Part shown: piece by piece, positions 37,519-48,196 of the stretch | How positions within the stretch are numbered: position 1 is the stretch's first letter | Layout of the letters: every line of letters starts with the position of its first letter | Assembly: GCF_009600605.1 (NCBI RefSeq) | Contig: NZ_VWNA01000001.1 | Location: 3,582,501 to 3,646,500 of the forward strand | Source: Segnochrobactrum spirostomi | GTDB taxonomy: Bacteria; Pseudomonadota; Alphaproteobacteria; Rhizobiales; Segnochrobactraceae | Length of the DNA stretch: 64,000 nt | Direction of reading: 5' to 3' | The notes under the pieces: generated by a model | Database searches by the model: none | Told to the model about the DNA's origin: nothing | What the model saw: the letters and a program-made list of their open reading frames with translations, nothing else | Position numbers and translations under genes: made by a program

Positions 37519-38433
37519 TCACCGGTCCGGCACGAAGGGTTGTCCGAGCGCGGCCGGGGCACCGGCGCGCGCGCGGCTGCGCGAGATCAGGACGAGCACC
37601 AGGATCGTCGCGAGATAGGGCAGGGCGGACATGAGCTGCGAGGGGACCGGCAGGCCGAACCCTTGCGCGTGCAGTTGGAGGATGGTCACGGCGCCGAAGA
37701 GATAGGCGCCGATGACCGCCCGCCACGGCATCCACGACGAGAACACGACGAGGGCGAGCGCGATCCAGCCGCGGCCGGCGGTCATGCCCTGCACCCAGAA
37801 CGGCGTGTAGGCGAGCGAGAGATAGGCCCCGGCGAGACCGGCGCAGGCGCCGCCGAACAGGATGGCGAAGAAGCGCACCCTGAGCACCGGGTGGCCGAGG
37901 GCATGGGCCGAGACGTGGCTGTCGCCGACCGCCCGCAGCACCAAGCCTGCCCGCGTCTTGTTGAGGAACCAGGCGATGCCGACGACGAGGGCGAACGAGG
38001 CATAGACGAAGACGTCCTCGCCGAAGAACAGCCGGCCGACGAACGGCAGGTCCGTCAGGCCGGGGATGTGGACCTCCGGCACGGCATTGATCTGCTTGCC
38101 GACGAAATCGCGGCCGATCAGGCCGGACAGGCCGAGCCCGAAGATCGTCAGCGCGAGGCCGGAGGCGACCTGGTTCGCCGCGAAGACGAGCACCATCAGG
38201 GCGAACAGGCAGGACAGCAGGGCCCCGGCCGCGATGCCGGCGACGATGCCGACGGTGGTGCTGCCGCTCAAGGAGGCCGCCGCGAAGCCGCAGGCGGCGC
38301 CCATCACCATCATCCCCTCGACGCCGAGATTGAGGACGCCGGAACGCTCGCAAACGAGCTCTCCGAGCGCCGCGATGAGGAGCGGCGTCGAGGCGGTGAC
38401 GACGGTGAGCAGGATCGCTTCAGTGAACTCCAC
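37519..38433 (-). CDS. ABC transporter permease, BMP/nucleoside class (COG1079 type)
   Basis: 304 residues with about eight to nine membrane helices, starting with GTG ([19 protein letters not shown]). Characteristic segments are [35 protein letters not shown] and [19 protein letters not shown]. It overlaps the companion permease by 14 bp. The pair forms the channel of the nucleoside importer. Confidence 0.92.
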
Positions 38434-39508
38434 GGACGGCCCTTCCCCCGGTCGAGCGCACGCGGACGCGATAGAGGATCAGCGTGTCGCAGGCGAGCAC
38501 GTAGAACAAGAGGGTGCCCTGCACGACGTTGGTGAGGTCGAGCGGAACACCGAGTGAAATCTGCGCCTGCTCGCCGCCGAGGAACGACAGCCCGAGGGCG
38601 AGGCCGGCGACGAGAATGCCGATCGGATTGAGGCGGCCGAGGAAGGCGACGATGATCGCCGTGAAACCGTAGCCCGGCGAGATGGTCGGCAGAAGCTGGC
38701 CGATGGGCCCGGCGACCTCGAGGAGACCGGCTAGGCCCGCGAGCCCGCCGGAGATCGCGAACGTGAGCAGGATCAAACGTTTGTCGTCGAATCCTGCGAA
38801 CCGGGCGGCGCGCGGTGCTTGTCCGACGAGGCGGATCTCGAAGCCCTTCAGCGTGCGCGACAGCAGGATCGCGGCGGCGATGACGATGACGAGCGTGATG
38901 AGCACGCCCAGGTGCATGCGGCCGCCCGGATCGAGCAGCGGCAGCGTCGCGGCCTCGTCGAAGGTCGCCGTCTGCGGGAAGTTGAACCCCATCGGGTCGC
39001 GCCACGGCCCGCGGACGAGATAATCGATGAGGAGCTGGGCGACATAGACGAGCATCAGGCTCGTCAGGATCTCGTTGGCCTTGAAGACGACCTTGAGGAC
39101 CGCCGGGATCAGCGCGTAGACCGCGCCGCCGAGGATGCCGGCGACGATCATCGCCGGCAGCACCCACCAGCCGCCGTCCGGCCCGAAGGTGAGGGCGACC
39201 CAGCCTCCGGCAATGGCGCCGAGGATATATTGCCCCTCCGCGCCGATGTTCCACGTGTTCGCGAGGAAGCACATGGAAAGGCCGATCGCGATGATGATGA
39301 GCGGTGAGGCTTTGACGGTCAGTTCCTCGAGGCTCCAGACATTGGTGAGCGGGTCGACGAAATAGACCTTGAGCCCTTGCAGCGGCGGGATGCCGACGAG
39401 GGCGAGCAGCACGCCGGCTGTGATCACGGTGAGCGCGACTGCGATGAGCGGCGACAGGAGCGCCATCGCCGAGGAGCGCTGCGGGCGTTTCTCGAGCTCA
39501 AGCAGCAT
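38420..39508 (-). CDS. ABC transporter permease, BMP/nucleoside class (COG4603 type)
   Basis: 362 residues with about eight membrane helices. LANTWNIGAEGQYILGAIAG and FKANEILTSLMLVYVAQLL are hallmarks of this class, and YGFTAIIVAFLGRLNPIGIL follows later. The ATG at 39508 overlaps the ATPase gene by 11 bp; an internal ATG at 39466 is possible. It overlaps the next permease by 14 bp, so all importer genes are tightly coupled. Confidence 0.92.
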   Translation of the reverse strand: MLLELEKRPQRSSAMALLSPLIAVALTVITAGVLLALVGIPPLQGLKVYFVDPLTNVWSLEELTVKASPLIIIAIGLSMCFLANTWNIGAEGQYILGAIAGGWVALTFGPDGGWWVLPAMIVAGILGGAVYALIPAVLKVVFKANEILTSLMLVYVAQLLIDYLVRGPWRDPMGFNFPQTATFDEAATLPLLDPGGRMHLGVLITLVIVIAAAILLSRTLKGFEIRLVGQAPRAARFAGFDDKRLILLTFAISGGLAGLAGLLEVAGPIGQLLPTISPGYGFTAIIVAFLGRLNPIGILVAGLALGLSFLGGEQAQISLGVPLDLTNVVQGTLLFYVLACDTLILYRVRVRSTGGRAVRGVH

Positions 39509-41063
39509 CGACGCTCTCCGTGTCGAGTTCGGGACGGGCGCCGCCCATGAGGAGGCCGATCCGCTCCAGCGTCACCGTTGCGGCGGGCTCGGGATCGGAC
39601 AGGTGCCCGTGGTGGATCACCGCGATGCGATCGGCGATCTCGAGGATCTCGTCGAGGTCCTGGCTGATGACGAGGACCGCGGCGCCGTTTGCGGCGAGAT
39701 CGATGAGGGATTGCCTGATCACCGCCGCCGCACCGGCATCGACGCCCCAGGTCGGCTGGTTGACGACGAGCACGCCGGGTCCGGCGAGGACTTCGCGACC
39801 GACGACGAATTTCTGCAAATTACCGCCCGAGAGGCTGCCGGCCTCCGGATCGGGCGCGCCCTTGCGCACGTCGAATTGCCCGATGACCGCTTCCGACAGC
39901 GCCTTCGCCTTGGAGCGCAGCAGCATGCCGATCCGCACCATCCCCGCGGTGGCGTAGCGCGTGAGCGCGGCGTTGTCGGAGAGGCTGAAGCGCGGCGCGG
40001 CGCCGTGGCCGAGGCGCTCCTCGGGCACGAAGGCCCCGCCGCGTTTGCGCCGGGCGGTGATGCCGAGGCCGCCGACCGGCGCGCCGTCGATCTTGACCGC
40101 CTCCGGCGGCGACAGCCGCTCGCCGGAAATGGCGTCGAACAACTCGCCCTGGCCGTTGCCCGCGACGCCGGCGATCGCGACGATCTCGCCGCCGCGCACG
40201 CTGAGCGACACGTCGTGCAAAGCTGTGCCGAAATGATCGGGCGCCGGCAGCGACAGGGTGGTGATCTCCAGCCGCGCCTTGCCGCCCTGGGCGCTCTCGC
40301 GCGGCACCAGGGTCTTCACGTCGCTGCCGACCATCATGCGGGCGAGGCTCGCGGCGGTTTCCCGGCGCGGATCGCAATGGCCGACCACCTTGCCGTGACG
40401 CAGCACCGTGGCCCGCTCGCAGAGCGCGCGGACCTCTTCGAGGCGGTGGGTGATGTAGAGGATCGAGCGGCCTTCCGCGGCGAGCCGGCGCAACGTGCCG
40501 AACAGGAGGTCGGCCTCCTGCGGCGTCAGCACCGAAGTCGGCTCGTCCATGATGAGAAGCTGCGGGTTCTGCAGGAGCGCGCGGCCGATCTCGATGCGCT
40601 GACGCTCGCCGACGGAGAGATCGCGCACATGGCGATGCGGATCGATCGGCAGGCCGAAATCGCGCGACATCGCCTCGATGTCGGCGACGATCTCGGCCAT
40701 CGACTTGTCCGGCGGCAGGCCGAGCGCGACGTTCTCGGCGACCGTGAGCGCCTCGAACAGCGAGAAATGCTGAAACACCATGCCGATGCCGAGCGCGCGG
40801 GCCTCGGCCGGGCTGCCGATCGTCGTCGGCACGCCGAGCCAGCGGATTTCCCCCTCGTTCGGCTGCAGCGCGCCGTAGAGAATCTTCACGAGGGTCGATT
40901 TGCCGGCGCCGTTCTCGCCGAGCAGGGCGTGGATCTCGCCCTGGCCGATGGTGAGATCGACGCCGTTGTTGGCGACGAGGGCTCCGAATCGTTTGACGAT
41001 GCCCCGGGCTTCAAGCGCCGGCGGGCGCACCACGTCAATCAGTCCCTCGGCGTCCGGCCCCAT
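39498..41063 (-). CDS. ABC transporter ATP-binding protein with two ATPase domains, BMP/nucleoside class
   Basis: 521 residues made of two ABC domains. The first has Walker A GENGAGKSTLVK, signature LSVGERQRIEIGRAL and Walker B LLIMDEPTSVL. The second has a degenerate Walker A (AGVAGNGQGELFDAI), signature LSGGNLQKFVVGREV and a degenerate Walker B (VLVVNQPTWGVD, where Asn-Gln replaces the usual Asp-Glu). Asymmetric sites of this kind are typical of the ribose/nucleoside subclass (COG3845). It leads the operon; the ATG is at 41063. Confidence 0.93.
   Translation of the reverse strand: MGPDAEGLIDVVRPPALEARGIVKRFGALVANNGVDLTIGQGEIHALLGENGAGKSTLVKILYGALQPNEGEIRWLGVPTTIGSPAEARALGIGMVFQHFSLFEALTVAENVALGLPPDKSMAEIVADIEAMSRDFGLPIDPHRHVRDLSVGERQRIEIGRALLQNPQLLIMDEPTSVLTPQEADLLFGTLRRLAAEGRSILYITHRLEEVRALCERATVLRHGKVVGHCDPRRETAASLARMMVGSDVKTLVPRESAQGGKARLEITTLSLPAPDHFGTALHDVSLSVRGGEIVAIAGVAGNGQGELFDAISGERLSPPEAVKIDGAPVGGLGITARRKRGGAFVPEERLGHGAAPRFSLSDNAALTRYATAGMVRIGMLLRSKAKALSEAVIGQFDVRKGAPDPEAGSLSGGNLQKFVVGREVLAGPGVLVVNQPTWGVDAGAAAVIRQSLIDLAANGAAVLVISQDLDEILEIADRIAVIHHGHLSDPEPAATVTLERIGLLMGGARPELDTESVDAA

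Positions 41064-41187: not shown

Positions 41188-41189
<2 letters not shown>
41133..41189 (-). terminator. Long-stem hairpin at the end of dppF
   Basis: GAGACGCCGGACCGGAA (41133-41149) pairs with TTCCGGTCCGCCGTCTC (41173-41189) at 16 of 17 positions around a 23-nt loop. It overlaps the last codons of dppF on the minus strand and lies 70 bp before the nucleoside ATPase start. It is positioned to end the dpp transcript, although no U-tract follows. Confidence 0.6.
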
Positions 41190-42224
<1,035 letters not shown>

Positions 42225-42228
<4 letters not shown>

Positions 42229-43232
42229 GCGGGCACTCCTTCCGCCGGCACACCCTCGCGGACGACGTTGACGCCGTCGACGAGCGGCAGGTGGCACCGG
42301 GCATGGCCGAGGGCGGCGCTCGCCGGCGTCGGCTCGACCCTGTGGCAATAATCGATCGCGAAGCGGCAGCGCGGCGCGAACAGGCATCCCTTCGGTCGGT
42401 CGAACGCGCCGGGAACGAGGCCCGGGATCGCCGGGAGGCGGCCTTCCGTCGCCCGCTCGGGCAGGGCTTCCAGCAGGGCCGCGGTGTAAGGATGATGCGG
42501 ATCGCGGAACAGTTCCCGGGTCGTCTGGATCTCGACCTGCTGGCCGGCATATTGCACGGCGACGCGGTGCGCGGTCTCCGCGACGACGCCCATGTCGTGG
42601 GTGATGAGCACGAGCGCCATCCCCGTCTCGCGCTGGATCTTCGTCAGAAGGTCGAGGATCTGCGCCTGGATCGTCACGTCGAGCGCGGTGGTCGGCTCGT
42701 CGGCAATGAGAAGCTTCGGATTTCCCGCGAGTGCCATCGCGATCATCACGCGCTGGCTCATGCCGCCCGAAAGCTGATGCGGGAACGCGGAGAGCCGCCG
42801 CTCCGGATCGGGGATGCCGACGAGGGCGAGCAGTTCCGCCGCCCGCTTGCGCTTGGCCGTGCCGTTGAGCCCGAGATGGGTCTTCAACACCTCGCCGATC
42901 TGGAAGCCCACCGTGAAGCACGGATTGAGGCTCGACATCGGCTCCTGGAAGATCATCGCCATGTCGCGGCCGATGATGCGGCGGCGCTCTCGCGCCGGCA
43001 TCGTCAGGAGATCGCGGCCGTCGAAGGCGAGGCGGTCGGCGGTGATGGTCGCCGTCGTGGGCAGAAGCCCCATCACCGCAAGCATGGCGACCGACTTGCC
43101 GGAGCCGGATTCACCGACGACCGACACGACCTCGTTGAGGCCGATGTCGAGCGAGACGCGATCGACGGCCCGGAATGCGCCGTGGCGCGTCGCGAACGAC
43201 ACGGAGAGGTTGGAGATTTCGAGGAGGGCCAT
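42225..43232 (-). CDS. dppD: Dipeptide/oligopeptide ABC transporter ATP-binding protein DppD
   Basis: 335 residues. Walker A is [13 protein letters not shown]-loop [17 protein letters not shown], signature [15 protein letters not shown], Walker [15 protein letters not shown] and switch His [10 protein letters not shown]. The C-terminus carries the cysteine segment [16 protein letters not shown] of the oligopeptide-transporter class. It starts 4 bp after the dppC stop (43237) and overlaps dppF by 4 bp. Confidence 0.93.
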
Positions 43233-43236
43233 GGCC

Positions 43237-44142
43237 TCAGCTCCTCTTCAGCTTGGGATCGAGGGCGTCGCGCAGGCCGTCCCCCATCAGGTTGATGGCG
43301 ATCACTGTGATGAGAATGGCGAGGCCGGGGAAGGTGACGACCCACCAGGCGCGCAGGATGAATTCCCGCGCCTCGGCGAGCATGGTGCCCCATTCGGGCG
43401 TCGGCGGCTGGGCGCCCATGCCGAGGAAGCCGAGCGCGGCGGCCTCGAGGATGGCGTTCGAGAACGACAGCGTGGCCTGGACGATCAGCGGCGCCACGCA
43501 ATTGGGCAGGATCGTCTTCAGCATGATGCGGATCGGACCGGCGCCGACGGTGCGCACCGCCTGCACATAATCCTTGCCGCGCTCGGTCATCACCGAGCCG
43601 CGGGTGAGCCGCACGAAATGGGGTTGCAGCACGAGCGCGATGGCGATCATCGCGTTGTCGAGGCCGGGACCGAGGATGGCGACCAGCACCAGGGCGAGGA
43701 GCAGGCTCGGAAAGGCGAGGATGACGTCCATCACCCGCATGATGACGATATCGACCCAGCCGCCGAAATAGCCGGCGACGAGCCCGAGCGCGATGCCCGA
43801 GACGAGGGAGAGCACGACGACGACGAGGCCGATGAAGAGCGAATAGCGCGCGCCGAAGATGAGCCGCGAGAGCATGTCGCGGCCGACCGCGTCGGTGCCC
43901 AGCAGATAATCGAGGCTGCCGCCCTGCTGCCAAGCCGGCGGCTGGAGGAGGGCGGCGGTGTTCTGCGCATCCGGCGCGTGGGGCGCGATGAGCGGCGCGA
44001 ACACGGCGACGGCGACGAGGAACAGGAACACGAAGAGACCTGCGACGGCGCCGCGGTTCTCCGCATAGGAGGCCCAGACGTCGCCGAGCGTCTCCCAAAA
44101 GGGATAGCGGCGGGCTGGCGTGGAGGCGGTGGTGTCGGTCAT
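43237..44142 (-). CDS. dppC: Dipeptide ABC transporter permease DppC
   Basis: 301 residues with about six membrane helices. The N-terminal segment WETLGDVWASYAENRGAVAG precedes the first helix. LLGTDAVGRDMLSRLIFGAR and GSVMTERGKDYVQAVRTVGA (the ATPase-contact loop) are diagnostic of DppC. ALGFLGMGAQPPTPEWGTML completes the pattern. In most genomes it follows dppB directly. Here an antiparallel toxin-antitoxin pair lies between, so it may depend on read-through or its own promoter. Confidence 0.93.
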   Translation of the reverse strand: MTDTTASTPARRYPFWETLGDVWASYAENRGAVAGLFVFLFLVAVAVFAPLIAPHAPDAQNTAALLQPPAWQQGGSLDYLLGTDAVGRDMLSRLIFGARYSLFIGLVVVVLSLVSGIALGLVAGYFGGWVDIVIMRVMDVILAFPSLLLALVLVAILGPGLDNAMIAIALVLQPHFVRLTRGSVMTERGKDYVQAVRTVGAGPIRIMLKTILPNCVAPLIVQATLSFSNAILEAAALGFLGMGAQPPTPEWGTMLAEAREFILRAWWVVTFPGLAILITVIAINLMGDGLRDALDPKLKRS

Positions 44143-44164
44143 GCGGCGCTCCGCACGTTGAGCG

Positions 44165-44185
44165 ACGTATCGTATTGTGATACGT
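44165..44185. promoter_or_regulatory. higBA operator palindrome
   Basis: ACGTATC (44165-44171) and GATACGT (44179-44185) are perfect 7-bp inverted repeats with a 7-bp spacer, 29 bp before the toxin start. AT-rich sequence in it fits an overlapping -10 box. Toxin-antitoxin operons are usually autorepressed by antitoxin or complex binding at such a site. It also lies 22 bp upstream of dppC, so the same site could affect dppC. Confidence 0.75.
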
Positions 44186-44213
44186 AGACGCCGTGGGGGA
44201 AGGGAGAGCGGCG

Positions 44214-44500
44214 GTGGCGATCGTCGGCTTTCGCGATGCGCGGGCGGAGGATCTGCTCGCCGGTCGCGACCCGGGCAAGGGATTTCCGGCCGAACTTCTG
44301 CGCGTCACGCGCCGAAAGCTGGTCATGCTCGCGGAAGCACGATCCCTGGACGACCTTCGCAGTCCCCCGCCAATCGGCTGGAGATGTTGAAGGGCGACCG
44401 GGCGGGGCAATGGTCCATTCGGATCAATGCTCAATGGCGCATCTGCTTCCGCTGGGATGCGGCCGGCGCCTTGGACGTCGAGATCGTCGATTATCATTGA
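44214..44500 (+). pseudogene. higB: HigB/RelE-type toxin, frameshifted
   Basis: The N-terminal part reads MAIVGFRDARAEDLLAGRDP, then GKGFPAELLRVTRRKLVML, and the C-terminal part reads NRLEMLKGDRAGQWSIRI, then NAQWRICFRWDAAGALDVEI and VDYH, but in the next frame. Together they give the usual HigB length of 95 residues. One base is missing at the C5 run 44364-44368 (AGTCCCCCGCC). The start is GTG 44214 with GGGAG upstream. HigB is a ribosome-dependent mRNase; Arg and His near the C-terminus are usual active-site residues. As written, the toxin would be inactive, which contrasts with the intact antitoxin. It may instead be a base-calling error. Confidence 0.85.
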
Positions 44501-44512
44501 GGAGCGTGTCCC

Positions 44513-44833
44513 ATGGCGGAGCATCGCAACGACCCGATCGACGATCCGCTTCGCCCCGTTCATCCGGGCGAGGTGCTGCGCGAGGAGTTTCTCGCGCCGC
44601 TCGGGCTGACACCCTACGCGCTCGCTCATCTCGTTCGGGTGCCGCGCACCCGCATCGAGCGCATCGTGCGGGAAGAAAGTCCGGTCACGCCGGATACGGC
44701 GCTGCGTCTGTCGCGCTATTTCGGCACGAGTGCCGAGTTCTGGCTCGGTATCCAGGCGCGCTTCGATCTCGAGAGCGCGCGCGCCGCCATCGGCGAGGAG
44801 TTGATCGCGATTCAGCCACGCGATGCCGCCTGA
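44513..44833 (+). CDS. higA: HigA-type antitoxin, XRE/Cro family
   Basis: 106 residues. DPLRPVHPGEVLREEFLAPLG is the classic opening of chromosomal HigA, followed by the helix-turn-helix TPYALAHLVRVPRTRIERIV and PVTPDTALRLSRYFGTSAEF, then FWLGIQARFDLESAR. It starts 12 bp after the toxin stop, preceded by GAGGAG. Gene order toxin then antitoxin is the usual higBA order. It would neutralise HigB and repress the operon. Confidence 0.92.
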   Translation: MAEHRNDPIDDPLRPVHPGEVLREEFLAPLGLTPYALAHLVRVPRTRIERIVREESPVTPDTALRLSRYFGTSAEFWLGIQARFDLESARAAIGEELIAIQPRDAA

Positions 44834-44880
44834 GAGATCGCAGATCCTCGTCAGAGAGGCCTCTGTCATGTCGTTTCTCC

Positions 44881-45885
44881 TCAATGCCGGATGCGCGGGT
44901 TGACCAGGCCGTAGGCTAGGTCGACCAGGAGATTGACGAGCATGATGATCGCCGCGATCAGGAGGAGGCCGCCCTGCACCGCCGTGTAGTCGCGGCGGAA
45001 CACGGAATCGACCAGCCATTTGCCGACCCCGGGCCAGGAGAAGATGGTCTCCGTCAGGATCGCGCCGGCCATCAGAAGTCCCATCTGGAGACCGATGGTG
45101 GTGACGACCGGGATCAGCGCGTTGCGCAGGGCGTGGAGACCGACCACGCGCAGCGGCGCGAGGCCTTTCGCCCGGGCGGTGCGGACATAATCCTCGCCGA
45201 GGACTTCGAGCATCGCCGAGCGGGTCTGCCGGGCGATCACCGCGAGCGGGATCGTGCCGAGCACGATGGTCGGCAGGATGAGGTGGGAGACCGCCGAGCC
45301 GAACGCGCCCTTCTGCCCGGAGAGCAGGCTGTCGATCAGCATGAAGCCGGTCACCTGCGGGAAGAAATAGAGAAGCGAGATGCGGCCCGACACCGGCGTC
45401 CATTTCAGGATGCCGGAGAACACGATGACGAGGAGCAGGCCCCACCAGAAGATCGGCATCGAATAGCCGACGAGGGCGGTCGACATCACCGCATGGTCGA
45501 ACACCGAGCCGCGGCGCACCGCGGCGATCACGCCCGCCGGAATGCCGATCGCGACCGCGAAGATCATGGCGCAGAGCGAGAGCTCGAGCGTCGCCGGGAA
45601 CAGGCTGCTGAACTCCTGGAGCACCGGCTTCTTGCTCACGAGCGAGCGGCCGAGATCGCCGTGCAGGATGTTCCAGAGATAGACGAGATATTGCTCCCAC
45701 AGCGGCTTGTCCAAGCCGAAGGCCGCCATGAGCTGGGCGTGCCGCTCGGGCGAGACGCCGTGCTCGCCGGCCATGACCAGCACCGGGTCGCCGGGCAGAA
45801 GACGGATGAAGACGAAGGCGATGATCGTGACGCCGATGAAGGTCGGAACGAGCACGGTCAGCCGCTTCAGAAGAAAGCGAAACAT
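44881..45885 (-). CDS. dppB: Dipeptide ABC transporter permease DppB
   Basis: 334 residues with about six membrane helices, starting MFRFLLKRLTVLVPTFIGVT with AGGT before the ATG at 45885. FIRLLPGDPVLVMAG, then RQTRSAMLEVLGEDYVRTAR (coupling loop), and AKGLAPLRVVGLHALRNALI are diagnostic. ETIFSWPGVGKWLVDSVFRR closes the pattern. A longer frame to 46029 is low-complexity and not likely. The gap to dppA holds a strong hairpin. Confidence 0.93.
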   Translation of the reverse strand: MFRFLLKRLTVLVPTFIGVTIIAFVFIRLLPGDPVLVMAGEHGVSPERHAQLMAAFGLDKPLWEQYLVYLWNILHGDLGRSLVSKKPVLQEFSSLFPATLELSLCAMIFAVAIGIPAGVIAAVRRGSVFDHAVMSTALVGYSMPIFWWGLLLVIVFSGILKWTPVSGRISLLYFFPQVTGFMLIDSLLSGQKGAFGSAVSHLILPTIVLGTIPLAVIARQTRSAMLEVLGEDYVRTARAKGLAPLRVVGLHALRNALIPVVTTIGLQMGLLMAGAILTETIFSWPGVGKWLVDSVFRRDYTAVQGGLLLIAAIIMLVNLLVDLAYGLVNPRIRH

Positions 45886-46256: not shown

Positions 46257-47855
46257 TTATTCCTGGATGTCCACCCCGTCGAAGCGGTGAATGCCGAGCG
46301 GGTCCATCTTGAAGCCGACGACGTTCTTGGTGGTCGGCACGGTGACCAGCGAGTGAGCGATGGTCGCCCACGGCGCCTGTTCCTTGAAGACCTTCTGAGC
46401 CTCCTGGTAGAGCTTGGTGCGCTCGGCCACGTCGGAGGTCGTGCGCGCCTTCTTGATGAGCTCTTCGAACGGCTGGTAGCAGAACTCGGCAACGTTGTTG
46501 GACGTGCCGACGCCGTCGCAGGTCAGCAGCGCGCCGAGGAAGTTGTCCGGGTCGCCGTTGTCGCCGGTCCAGCCGAGCATGACGATGCCCTCGTGGTTCT
46601 TGTCGCCGGCGCGCTTCAGATATTCGCCCCACTCGAACGAGACGATCTCGGCCTTGACGCCGATCTTGGCGAAGTCGGCCTGCAGGAGCTCGGCCATGCG
46701 GCGGCCGTTGGGGTTGTACGGACGGCTCACGGGCATCGCCCAGAGCTTCACCGTCAGGTCCTTCACGCCGGCTTCGTCGAGCAGTTTCTTGGCACCCTCG
46801 GGATCATACGGATCGTCGATGGTCGCCTCGTCATAGGACCACATGGTCGGCGGGATCGGGTTCTTGGCGACCTGGCCGACGCCCGGATACACGGCGTCGA
46901 TGATCGCCTTCTTGTTCATCGCCATGTTGAGGGCGCGGCGAACGCGGGCGTCGTCGAACGGCTTCTGGGTCGTGTTGTAGGCGAGGTAGCCGATGTTGAG
47001 GCCTTCCTGCTGCAGCACCTTGAGGTTCGCGTCCGCCTTGAGACCGGCGATGTCGGCCGGGTTCGGATAGGGCATGACGTTGCACTCGCCCGCCTTCACC
47101 TTCTCGGCGCGGATCGAGGCATCCGGCGTGATCGCGAAGATGAGGTCGTCGATCGGCTGCTTGCCGGCCCAATAATCCGGGAAGGCCTTGTAGCGGATCA
47201 CCGCGTCCTTCTGGTAGGCGACGAGCTGGAAGGGACCGGTGCCGACGGGCTCCTGGTCGATGACTTCCGGCGTACCGGCCTTCAGCATCGCGTCGGCATA
47301 TTCCTTGGACTGGATCGAGGCGAAGTCCATGCCGAGATCGGCGAGGAAGGGCGCGTTCGGCTCGTTGAGCACGAACTTCACCGTGTTGTCGTCGACCTTC
47401 ACGACCTCCTTGAGGATCGCCGGCATCGACATCGCTTCGAAATATTCGTACGAGCCGTTGCTCACGTTGTGGAAGGGATCATCCTTCTTGAGCTGACGGT
47501 TGAAGGTGTAGACCACGTCGTCCGCGTTGAGATCCCGGCTCGGCGTGAACTTGTCGCTGCTCTGGAACTTCACGCCCTTGCGCAGATGGAAAGTGTATTC
47601 CTTGCCGTCCGGGGAGATCTCCCACTTTTCGGCGAGGCCGGGCTGAAGCGTGGTGCCGCCGTGCTCGAATTCGACGAGGCGGTTGTAGATGGTGCGGGAG
47701 ACCGCGTCGAAGGTGGTGCCGCTCGTGTAGAACGCCGGCTGCCAACCCTCGGGGCTCGCTTCGGAGCAGAATACGAGGGTCTTGGCTTCCGCCGCCGCCG
47801 ACCAGGCAAGGCAGGTCGTAAGGGCGAGAAGACCGGCAAATTTGCGGAACTGCAT
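46257..47855 (-). CDS. dppA: Dipeptide-binding periplasmic protein DppA
   Basis: 532 residues. The signal peptide is MQFRKFAGLLALTTCLAWSA with cleavage near AEA-KT. The mature start KTLVFCSEASPEGWQPAFYT, TIYNRLVEFEHGGTTLQPGL and FHLRKGVKFQSSDKFTPSRD parallel E. coli DppA closely. The C-terminal DPLGIHRFDGVDIQE also matches that protein. GWTGDNGDPDNFLGALLTCD is typical of the binding pocket region. The ATG is at 47855; a longer frame to 47912 is improbable. It leads the dpp operon; ligand specificity is peptides, possibly including heme in relatives. Confidence 0.95.
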   Translation of the reverse strand: MQFRKFAGLLALTTCLAWSAAAEAKTLVFCSEASPEGWQPAFYTSGTTFDAVSRTIYNRLVEFEHGGTTLQPGLAEKWEISPDGKEYTFHLRKGVKFQSSDKFTPSRDLNADDVVYTFNRQLKKDDPFHNVSNGSYEYFEAMSMPAILKEVVKVDDNTVKFVLNEPNAPFLADLGMDFASIQSKEYADAMLKAGTPEVIDQEPVGTGPFQLVAYQKDAVIRYKAFPDYWAGKQPIDDLIFAITPDASIRAEKVKAGECNVMPYPNPADIAGLKADANLKVLQQEGLNIGYLAYNTTQKPFDDARVRRALNMAMNKKAIIDAVYPGVGQVAKNPIPPTMWSYDEATIDDPYDPEGAKKLLDEAGVKDLTVKLWAMPVSRPYNPNGRRMAELLQADFAKIGVKAEIVSFEWGEYLKRAGDKNHEGIVMLGWTGDNGDPDNFLGALLTCDGVGTSNNVAEFCYQPFEELIKKARTTSDVAERTKLYQEAQKVFKEQAPWATIAHSLVTVPTTKNVVGFKMDPLGIHRFDGVDIQE

Positions 47856-48196
47856 AGCTGCTGACCTCTGTCTTTTTGGTGTCGCACCGCGTCGAGGCGG
47901 GGCGCCGCTCATCGTGGACGAGCGGAACGTGGCGCGATGTTATGGGAGGTTGCAGCGCGATGTGAACACAAAGTTTTGAAATTTCCGCCGGTTTTTGGTC
48001 ATGATCGTCGCTGGACGAAGCGGATTGCGCTTCGGCTCGCCGCTTGCATGAGGCGTCGCGAGGCCGACCGCCGGGCGCTTGCGCGCGGCGCCGCGGCATG
48101 GAAACTTTCGCCGCCTCCGCGCCGGATCCGGGCTTCTCCCGGGCGGACCTCACGGAGGCGTCCGCTCCATCGACCCCGCATCCGGAGAGCCCGCGA
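47856..48196. other. 341-bp divergent gap between dppA and pyc
   Basis: No gene is supported. An AT-rich block near 47950-48000 (AAAGTTTTGAAATTT and GGTTTTTGGTCATG) probably holds both promoters. The right part (48000-48196) is GC-rich and stays open in the pyc frame from an ATG at 48044, but that segment lacks family similarity. Confidence 0.5.

Follow-up and report, generated by a model that had tools for sequence, protein, structure and literature searches.

A higBA unit set antisense in a dpp-type operon of Segnochrobactrum spirostomi, probably acquired recently and decaying

The dpp-type transporter operon of Segnochrobactrum spirostomi is interrupted between dppB and dppC by a small higBA toxin-antitoxin unit lying on the opposite strand. 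We analysed it in a 64,000-nucleotide window (positions 3,582,501 to 3,646,500 of contig NZ_VWNA01000001.1), whose numbering is used below. The insert contains an intact gene for the antitoxin HigA, a palindrome that is its putative operator, and a sequence for the toxin HigB whose two halves are in different reading frames in the assembly. It is likely that this is a recently acquired, decaying cassette, carried as an ordinary passenger of the operon rather than forming a new control circuit.

Insertion between dppB and dppC

The end of dppB and the start of dppC are 738 nt apart in the source genome. The corresponding gap is -23 to 59 nt (median 15; negative values are alignment-based estimates) in 95 dpp loci from other genomes, which represent 94 distinct contigs because two loci, L042 and L006, apparently lie on the same one. 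They come from two capped sets, the 30 best loci of a 61-genome search and the 80 top-ranking of 588 confirmed matches, and each encodes a DppB and a DppC at least 60% identical to those of S. spirostomi. No HigA match at an E value of 1e-5 is present in any of the 95. Two other genera of the family have an empty site, with gaps of 11 nt (genome G001) and 13 nt (genome G002). An earlier note on this DNA had described an insertion within the dpp operon, pointing to uninterrupted B-C junctions in relatives as the evidence to look for and to the same insertion everywhere as the evidence against. All 95 loci, G001 and G002 included, have the uninterrupted junction and none carries the insert. The insertion is real and, among the loci examined, is found in the source genome only. 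With no other species of the source genus in the comparison, the insertion can be dated only as later than the divergence of this lineage from the family's other genera.

The features of the insert and its edges are listed below. The promoter and both flank repeats were read from the sequence; the repeats and the dppC-like start were identified by flank comparison.

44158..44186, plus strand: putative higBA promoter, TTGAGC (44158-44163), 17 nt, TACGTA (44181-44186), overlapping the operator
44165..44185, plus strand: putative HigA operator (binding site), the perfect 7-7-7 palindrome ACGTATC-N7-GATACGT, with the same site upstream of higB in relatives
44214..44390, plus strand: higB N-terminal half, presumed start GTG 44214, frame ending at the stop 44388-44390; matches the HigB N halves of 21 loci at 35-71%
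44363..44497, plus strand: higB C-terminal half, lying within the 44177-44500 open reading frame (ORF); PF05015 positions 48-91, 37.9 bits; matches the HigB C halves of the same 21 loci at 52-79%
44513..44833, plus strand: higA, intact antitoxin and putative autorepressor; TIGR02607 at 106.2 bits (cut-off 47.7), PF01381
44135..44143, minus strand: right 9-nt flank repeat, across the dppC start codon
44862..44870, minus strand: left 9-nt flank repeat, candidate target duplication
44867..44880, minus strand: dppC-like start region (GGAG and ATG) directly after the dppB stop

The earlier note had placed a plus-strand higBA pair here, at 44165-44833. A HigB-like piece and an intact HigA do lie between the dppB stop (44881) and the dppC ATG (44142), and 44833 is the end of higA. 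The position given as the start is that of the operator, higB itself most likely beginning at GTG 44214, and the term toxin-antitoxin pair finds support for one partner only, the frame of the toxin being broken in the source assembly.

A dppC-like start is present on both sides of the insert, and the dppC start appears to have been duplicated on insertion. The left-over ATG (44869, minus strand) is 11 nt from the dppB stop, the same spacing as in G001, and a further ribosome site accompanies the real dppC start at 44142. Around the two start codons, the 9-nt flanks are identical at 8 of 9 positions, which a short target duplication would fit without being proved by it. From the left-over start a 598-codon frame, out of frame with dppC, extends to 43073. 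This frame across the insert and dppC was rejected as a signal: when higA and the HigB halves were re-encoded synonymously 5,000 times, it stayed open across the insert in 91% of cases.

We propose that, once this lineage had diverged from the two other genera of the family that were sampled, it acquired a cassette of about 0.73 kb comprising promoter/operator, higB and higA and lacking its own mobility gene. Entering in antisense orientation at the first codons of dppC, the cassette would have duplicated about 9 bp, the start codon included. One copy would be the dppC-like start left behind dppB and the other the dppC start beside the new ribosome site. HigB would later have fallen out of frame, leaving a unit that no longer makes a standard toxin, while the intact HigA would probably still bind the palindrome over the higB promoter and repress only itself. 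Transcription of dppC-dppF would most likely still come from the dppA side and cross the insert; should HigA affect these genes, by a roadblock or opposing transcription, the effect would be incidental, and it is unproven.

The antitoxin and the broken toxin frame

HigA scores well above the TIGR02607 cut-off and is a member of that family. Among solved structures the closest in sequence are chains of 7csv, 6jpi and 6f8h, named there as HTH/XRE proteins, which we take to be Pseudomonas aeruginosa HigA and Pseudomonas putida GraA. The gene order is toxin first on one strand, the HigB pieces (44214-44497) preceding higA (44513-44833). In the closest relative, L130, identity is 74% for HigA and 71% and 69% for the two HigB halves.

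The HigB halves are in different frames in the source assembly. The N half runs into the stop at 44388-44390 and only PF05015 profile positions 48-91 are in frame, leaving no intact HigB frame before higA. The two halves were searched separately against ORFs of at least 40 residues ending near 33 other HigA loci: the 29 best from other genomes and 4 others of the source genome (a HigA match occurs in 92 of 397 genomes, the source included). Both halves share one open frame at 21 of the 33 loci, comprising 20 of 29 in other genomes and 1 of 4 in the source genome. Of the remaining other-genome loci, 6/29 match the C half only and 3/29 neither half. In the source genome, L123 matches the C half only (open stretch of 96 residues), L126 the N half only, and L125 neither beyond chance.

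Four observations weigh against the account of a decaying cassette. The frame comparison is not uniform, as 12 of the 33 other HigA loci lack both halves in one frame. The non-synonymous divergence (dN) from the closest relative is 0.23 for the HigB N half and 0.30 for the C half, near the 0.22 of HigA and with no sign of long relaxed evolution, so that a true break would be recent. The break is known from one assembly and falls within a stretch holding a homopolymer run, and may be a sequencing error. Finally, the 9-nt flank match is short, contains a start codon and has one mismatch; a true target duplication is not proved.

A rival explanation is an ordinary, autoregulated type II module that is intact and working, with the frame break an assembly error. 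In its favour, HigA is intact, conservation is good in both HigB halves and extends to the C-terminal DYH, their dN is near that of HigA, and the break lies where a homopolymer run is found. The position in the operon could then make loss of the dpp region costly via post-segregational killing, and insertion that may impose maintenance of an operon has been proposed for restriction-modification genes (PMC4615327). However, six neighbouring genes (dppA, dppB, dppC, dppD, dppF and pyc) have no frame break against G001, which indicates that the assembly is not generally error-prone here, although a local error in one assembly is still possible. Further, loci L147 and L151 have short HigB C-half frames without an N half, and damaged HigB beside HigA may therefore occur elsewhere. 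We consider a working module possible but unlikely. A different account of the same conserved halves is that programmed frameshifting or transcript slippage joins the two frames into HigB, the toxin being rare by design, and the change of frame within a short stretch with a homopolymer run would suit it. The presence of both halves in one frame at 21 of 33 other HigA loci argues against this, and we regard it as extremely improbable.

Other higB sequences were observed alongside this comparison. At L147 (genome G126) and L151 (genome G082) the HigB C half beside HigA lies in frames of 50 and 62 residues, possibly further cases of broken HigB. The source genome (G000) contains a further HigB-HigA pair at C1:493918-494463 (L124, L127), with a HigB-sized open stretch of 105 residues and a HigA 47% identical to that of the insert, and another at C1:2092108-2092602 (L123, L128), with a HigB-sized open stretch of 96 residues and a HigA 40% identical. 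A possible higBA relic lies at C1:1108276-1108556 (L002, L126), where 93 bp are 78% identical to the end of higB and the HigA match covers residues 15-69 only.

The operator and expression of dppC-dppF

With up to two mismatches allowed, chance would give 0.06 matches to the palindrome at 44165-44185 in the window. Of 34 HigA loci, the window included, 21 have its core, GTATC-N7-GATAC with at most one mismatch, upstream and 13 do not; mononucleotide shuffling gives a mean of 0.1 HigA locus with an operator. Two or more copies, mostly 32-40 nt apart, are found at 11 of the 34 loci (L138, L141, L142, L143, L148, L139, L151, L155 and others). The window has the promoter-proximal copy only, the place expected for the second being occupied by the beginning of the dppC coding sequence. 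The predicted operator overlaps the putative promoter TTGAGC-17-TACGTA, which a sigma-70-type promoter scan did not report. A TTG at about the -35 distance precedes the palindrome in 11 of 19 exact-operator loci, the window included, on the assumption that the -10 element is in the right arm; it is absent in 8.

The earlier note had given higBA an operator of its own, and the palindrome with its counterparts upstream of relatives' higB bears this out. The distance of 22 nt to the dppC start is likewise confirmed by the coordinates. The palindrome is thus the usual operator of a higBA unit, and the site of insertion accounts for its short distance to dppC.

The note went on to suggest that antitoxin binding influences dppC-dppF and links peptide import to toxin control. 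The analysis does not support this. The sigma-70-type scan, which does not cover other promoter types, detected neither a promoter nor a terminator on the minus strand at the B-C junction, and for want of such a promoter a regulatory link to dppC-dppF was rejected. The operator is placed as in relatives, upstream of higB. A genome-wide HigA regulon was also rejected, CGTATC-N7-GATACG with at most one mismatch occurring at 6 sites and the reversed control pattern at 17. Without a junction promoter or enrichment of the operator, what would join peptide import to toxin control is proximity. The scan reported one promoter-like site inside dppC (43933-43906). No plus-strand terminator was found after higA, and the one terminator-like site inside higA, on the minus strand, is within chance expectation. 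The only other exact operator site in the genome, C3:338184, is between listed ORFs, and the four surrounding ORFs have no Pfam match.

Could HigA nonetheless act as a local regulator, which when bound at 44165-44185 blocks or recruits transcription into dppC and uncouples dppC, dppD and dppF from dppA and dppB? The operator is 22 nt from the dppC start, and precedents exist: P. aeruginosa HigA represses mvfR, according to work by others cited in PMC6987408, and an inactive pair, MtvT/MtvA, acts as a regulator (PMC11826091). Against this stand the lack of a minus-strand junction promoter of the sigma-70 type, the placement of the operator to serve higB as in relatives, and the absence of genomic enrichment, and we consider such regulation very unlikely. 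A related proposal, that a toxin-free HigA and its operator at an internal dppC-dppF start form a roadblock setting the ratio of DppC, DppD and DppF to DppA and DppB, is likewise very unlikely. If true, it would show a selfish module in the course of becoming a local regulator of the operon in which it sits.

Origin, known systems and the surrounding operon

GC content at third codon positions (GC3) is 78.5% in higA and 72.0% and 76.2% in the HigB halves, compared with 87.8-91.5% in six neighbouring genes. The lower values suggest a foreign source for the insert, as has likewise been proposed for Caulobacter higBA (PMC13384398). Pfam searches of four further frames of the insert gave no match and revealed no transposase-like family, and no terminal inverted repeats with arms of at least 8 nt join its ends. 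Between window positions 44000 and 45000, nothing apart from stretches covering the higB C half and the higA junction recurs in the genome (40 of 254 candidates scored). The insert thus lacks the terminal inverted repeats, together with a transposase or related genomic copy, by which a transposable element is recognised. A larger mobile element, or conserved outer flanks, was rejected: the 60 nt after higA in the 33 other HigA loci look unrelated by eye. No plasmid donor was found, the 21 records with weak DNA similarity (60-80%) each covering less than 80% of the query; phage and viral collections were not searched. HigA protein matches occur in 629 plasmid records, 16 at 60-80% identity and the others below 60%. 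Literature searches on toxin-antitoxin systems and the dpp operon showed, among the papers listed, no report of higBA between dppB and dppC.

The insert is of the HigBA kind by its antitoxin, gene order and operator, and fails on an intact toxin; it is mostly ordinary, with a neat insertion footprint. P. aeruginosa HigBA and P. putida GraTA share with it a toxin gene in first position, a TIGR02607 HigA with a helix-turn-helix domain and a palindromic operator over the promoter, and differ in that HigB is out of frame in S. spirostomi. The operator sequence also differs, being TTAAC / GTTAA in P. aeruginosa (PMC6987408) and GTATC-N7-GATAC here, and the insert has one operator site whereas 11 of the 34 HigA loci have two or more. 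In Caulobacter crescentus a likely foreign higBA similarly adjoins an older chromosomal gene, higX, in few genomes; there, according to PMC13384398, higBA is upstream of higX and both are SOS-induced, while the S. spirostomi unit is antisense in a transporter operon with its toxin out of frame. PabI-family restriction-modification genes offer another case of a selfish unit inside a metabolic operon, one of them with a short boundary repeat that is perhaps a target duplication and perhaps not (PMC4615327); the S. spirostomi unit differs in being antisense. The inactive MtvT/MtvA pair resembles the insert in having no active toxin and a retained DNA-binding antitoxin, a property predicted for S. 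spirostomi. Regulation by MtvT/MtvA was demonstrated experimentally (PMC11826091), whereas for S. spirostomi HigA it is hypothetical.

The insertion presents a clean case of a small toxin-antitoxin unit inside a conserved operon, with an empty site in two other genera of the family and a dppC-like start on both sides, in which the toxin is seemingly lost while the antitoxin remains. It is relevant to two questions: how toxin-antitoxin modules spread when they have no transposase, and whether insertion into an operon gives them protection or leads only to decay.

The genes of the operon, in the order A-B-C-D-F, are:

46257..47912, minus strand: dppA-type substrate-binding protein; PF00496 at 336.5 bits, best NCBIfam NF043070 at 784 bits (cut-off 1005)
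44881..45885, minus strand: dppB-type permease, full length; PF00528, NF008161 at 511.6 bits (cut-off 590)
43237..44142, minus strand: dppC-type permease, full length; PF00528, PF12911, NF008160 at 425.5 bits (cut-off 483); GGAG 6 nt before the ATG
42225..43232, minus strand: dppD-type ATPase; PF00005, PF08352, NF008246 at 448 bits (cut-off 541)
41188..42228, minus strand: dppF-type ATPase, exact start uncertain; NF008453 at 532.1 bits (cut-off 408), PF00005, PF08352

Family matches and coordinates agree with the earlier note that dppA, dppB, dppC, dppD and dppF all lie on the minus strand in canonical order, and all five are full length as judged by family and ortholog matches. DppB is 85% identical to its G001 ortholog and forms a single uninterrupted frame in that comparison. 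The best NCBIfam models of all five are Dpp models. Each misses its Dpp equivalog cut-off (DppA 784/1005, DppB 512/590, DppC 426/483, DppD 448/541 and DppF 471/660 bits) and only DppF passes a subfamily model, NF008453. The names are thus best matches below equivalog cut-offs, making dpp-type safer than dpp, and the substrate is not certain. By DppC protein the closest named relatives are Hyphomicrobiales such as Pseudoxanthobacter soli, though records very near the source genome may be left out.

The source genome measures 5.40 Mb in 4 contigs. Directly downstream of dppF, on the minus strand at 37519-41063 of the window, lies a second ATP-binding cassette (ABC) transporter consisting of an ATPase with two ABC domains and two PF02653 permeases. 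Its best NCBIfam models, all scoring below cut-off, are those of a 'putative B6' transporter.
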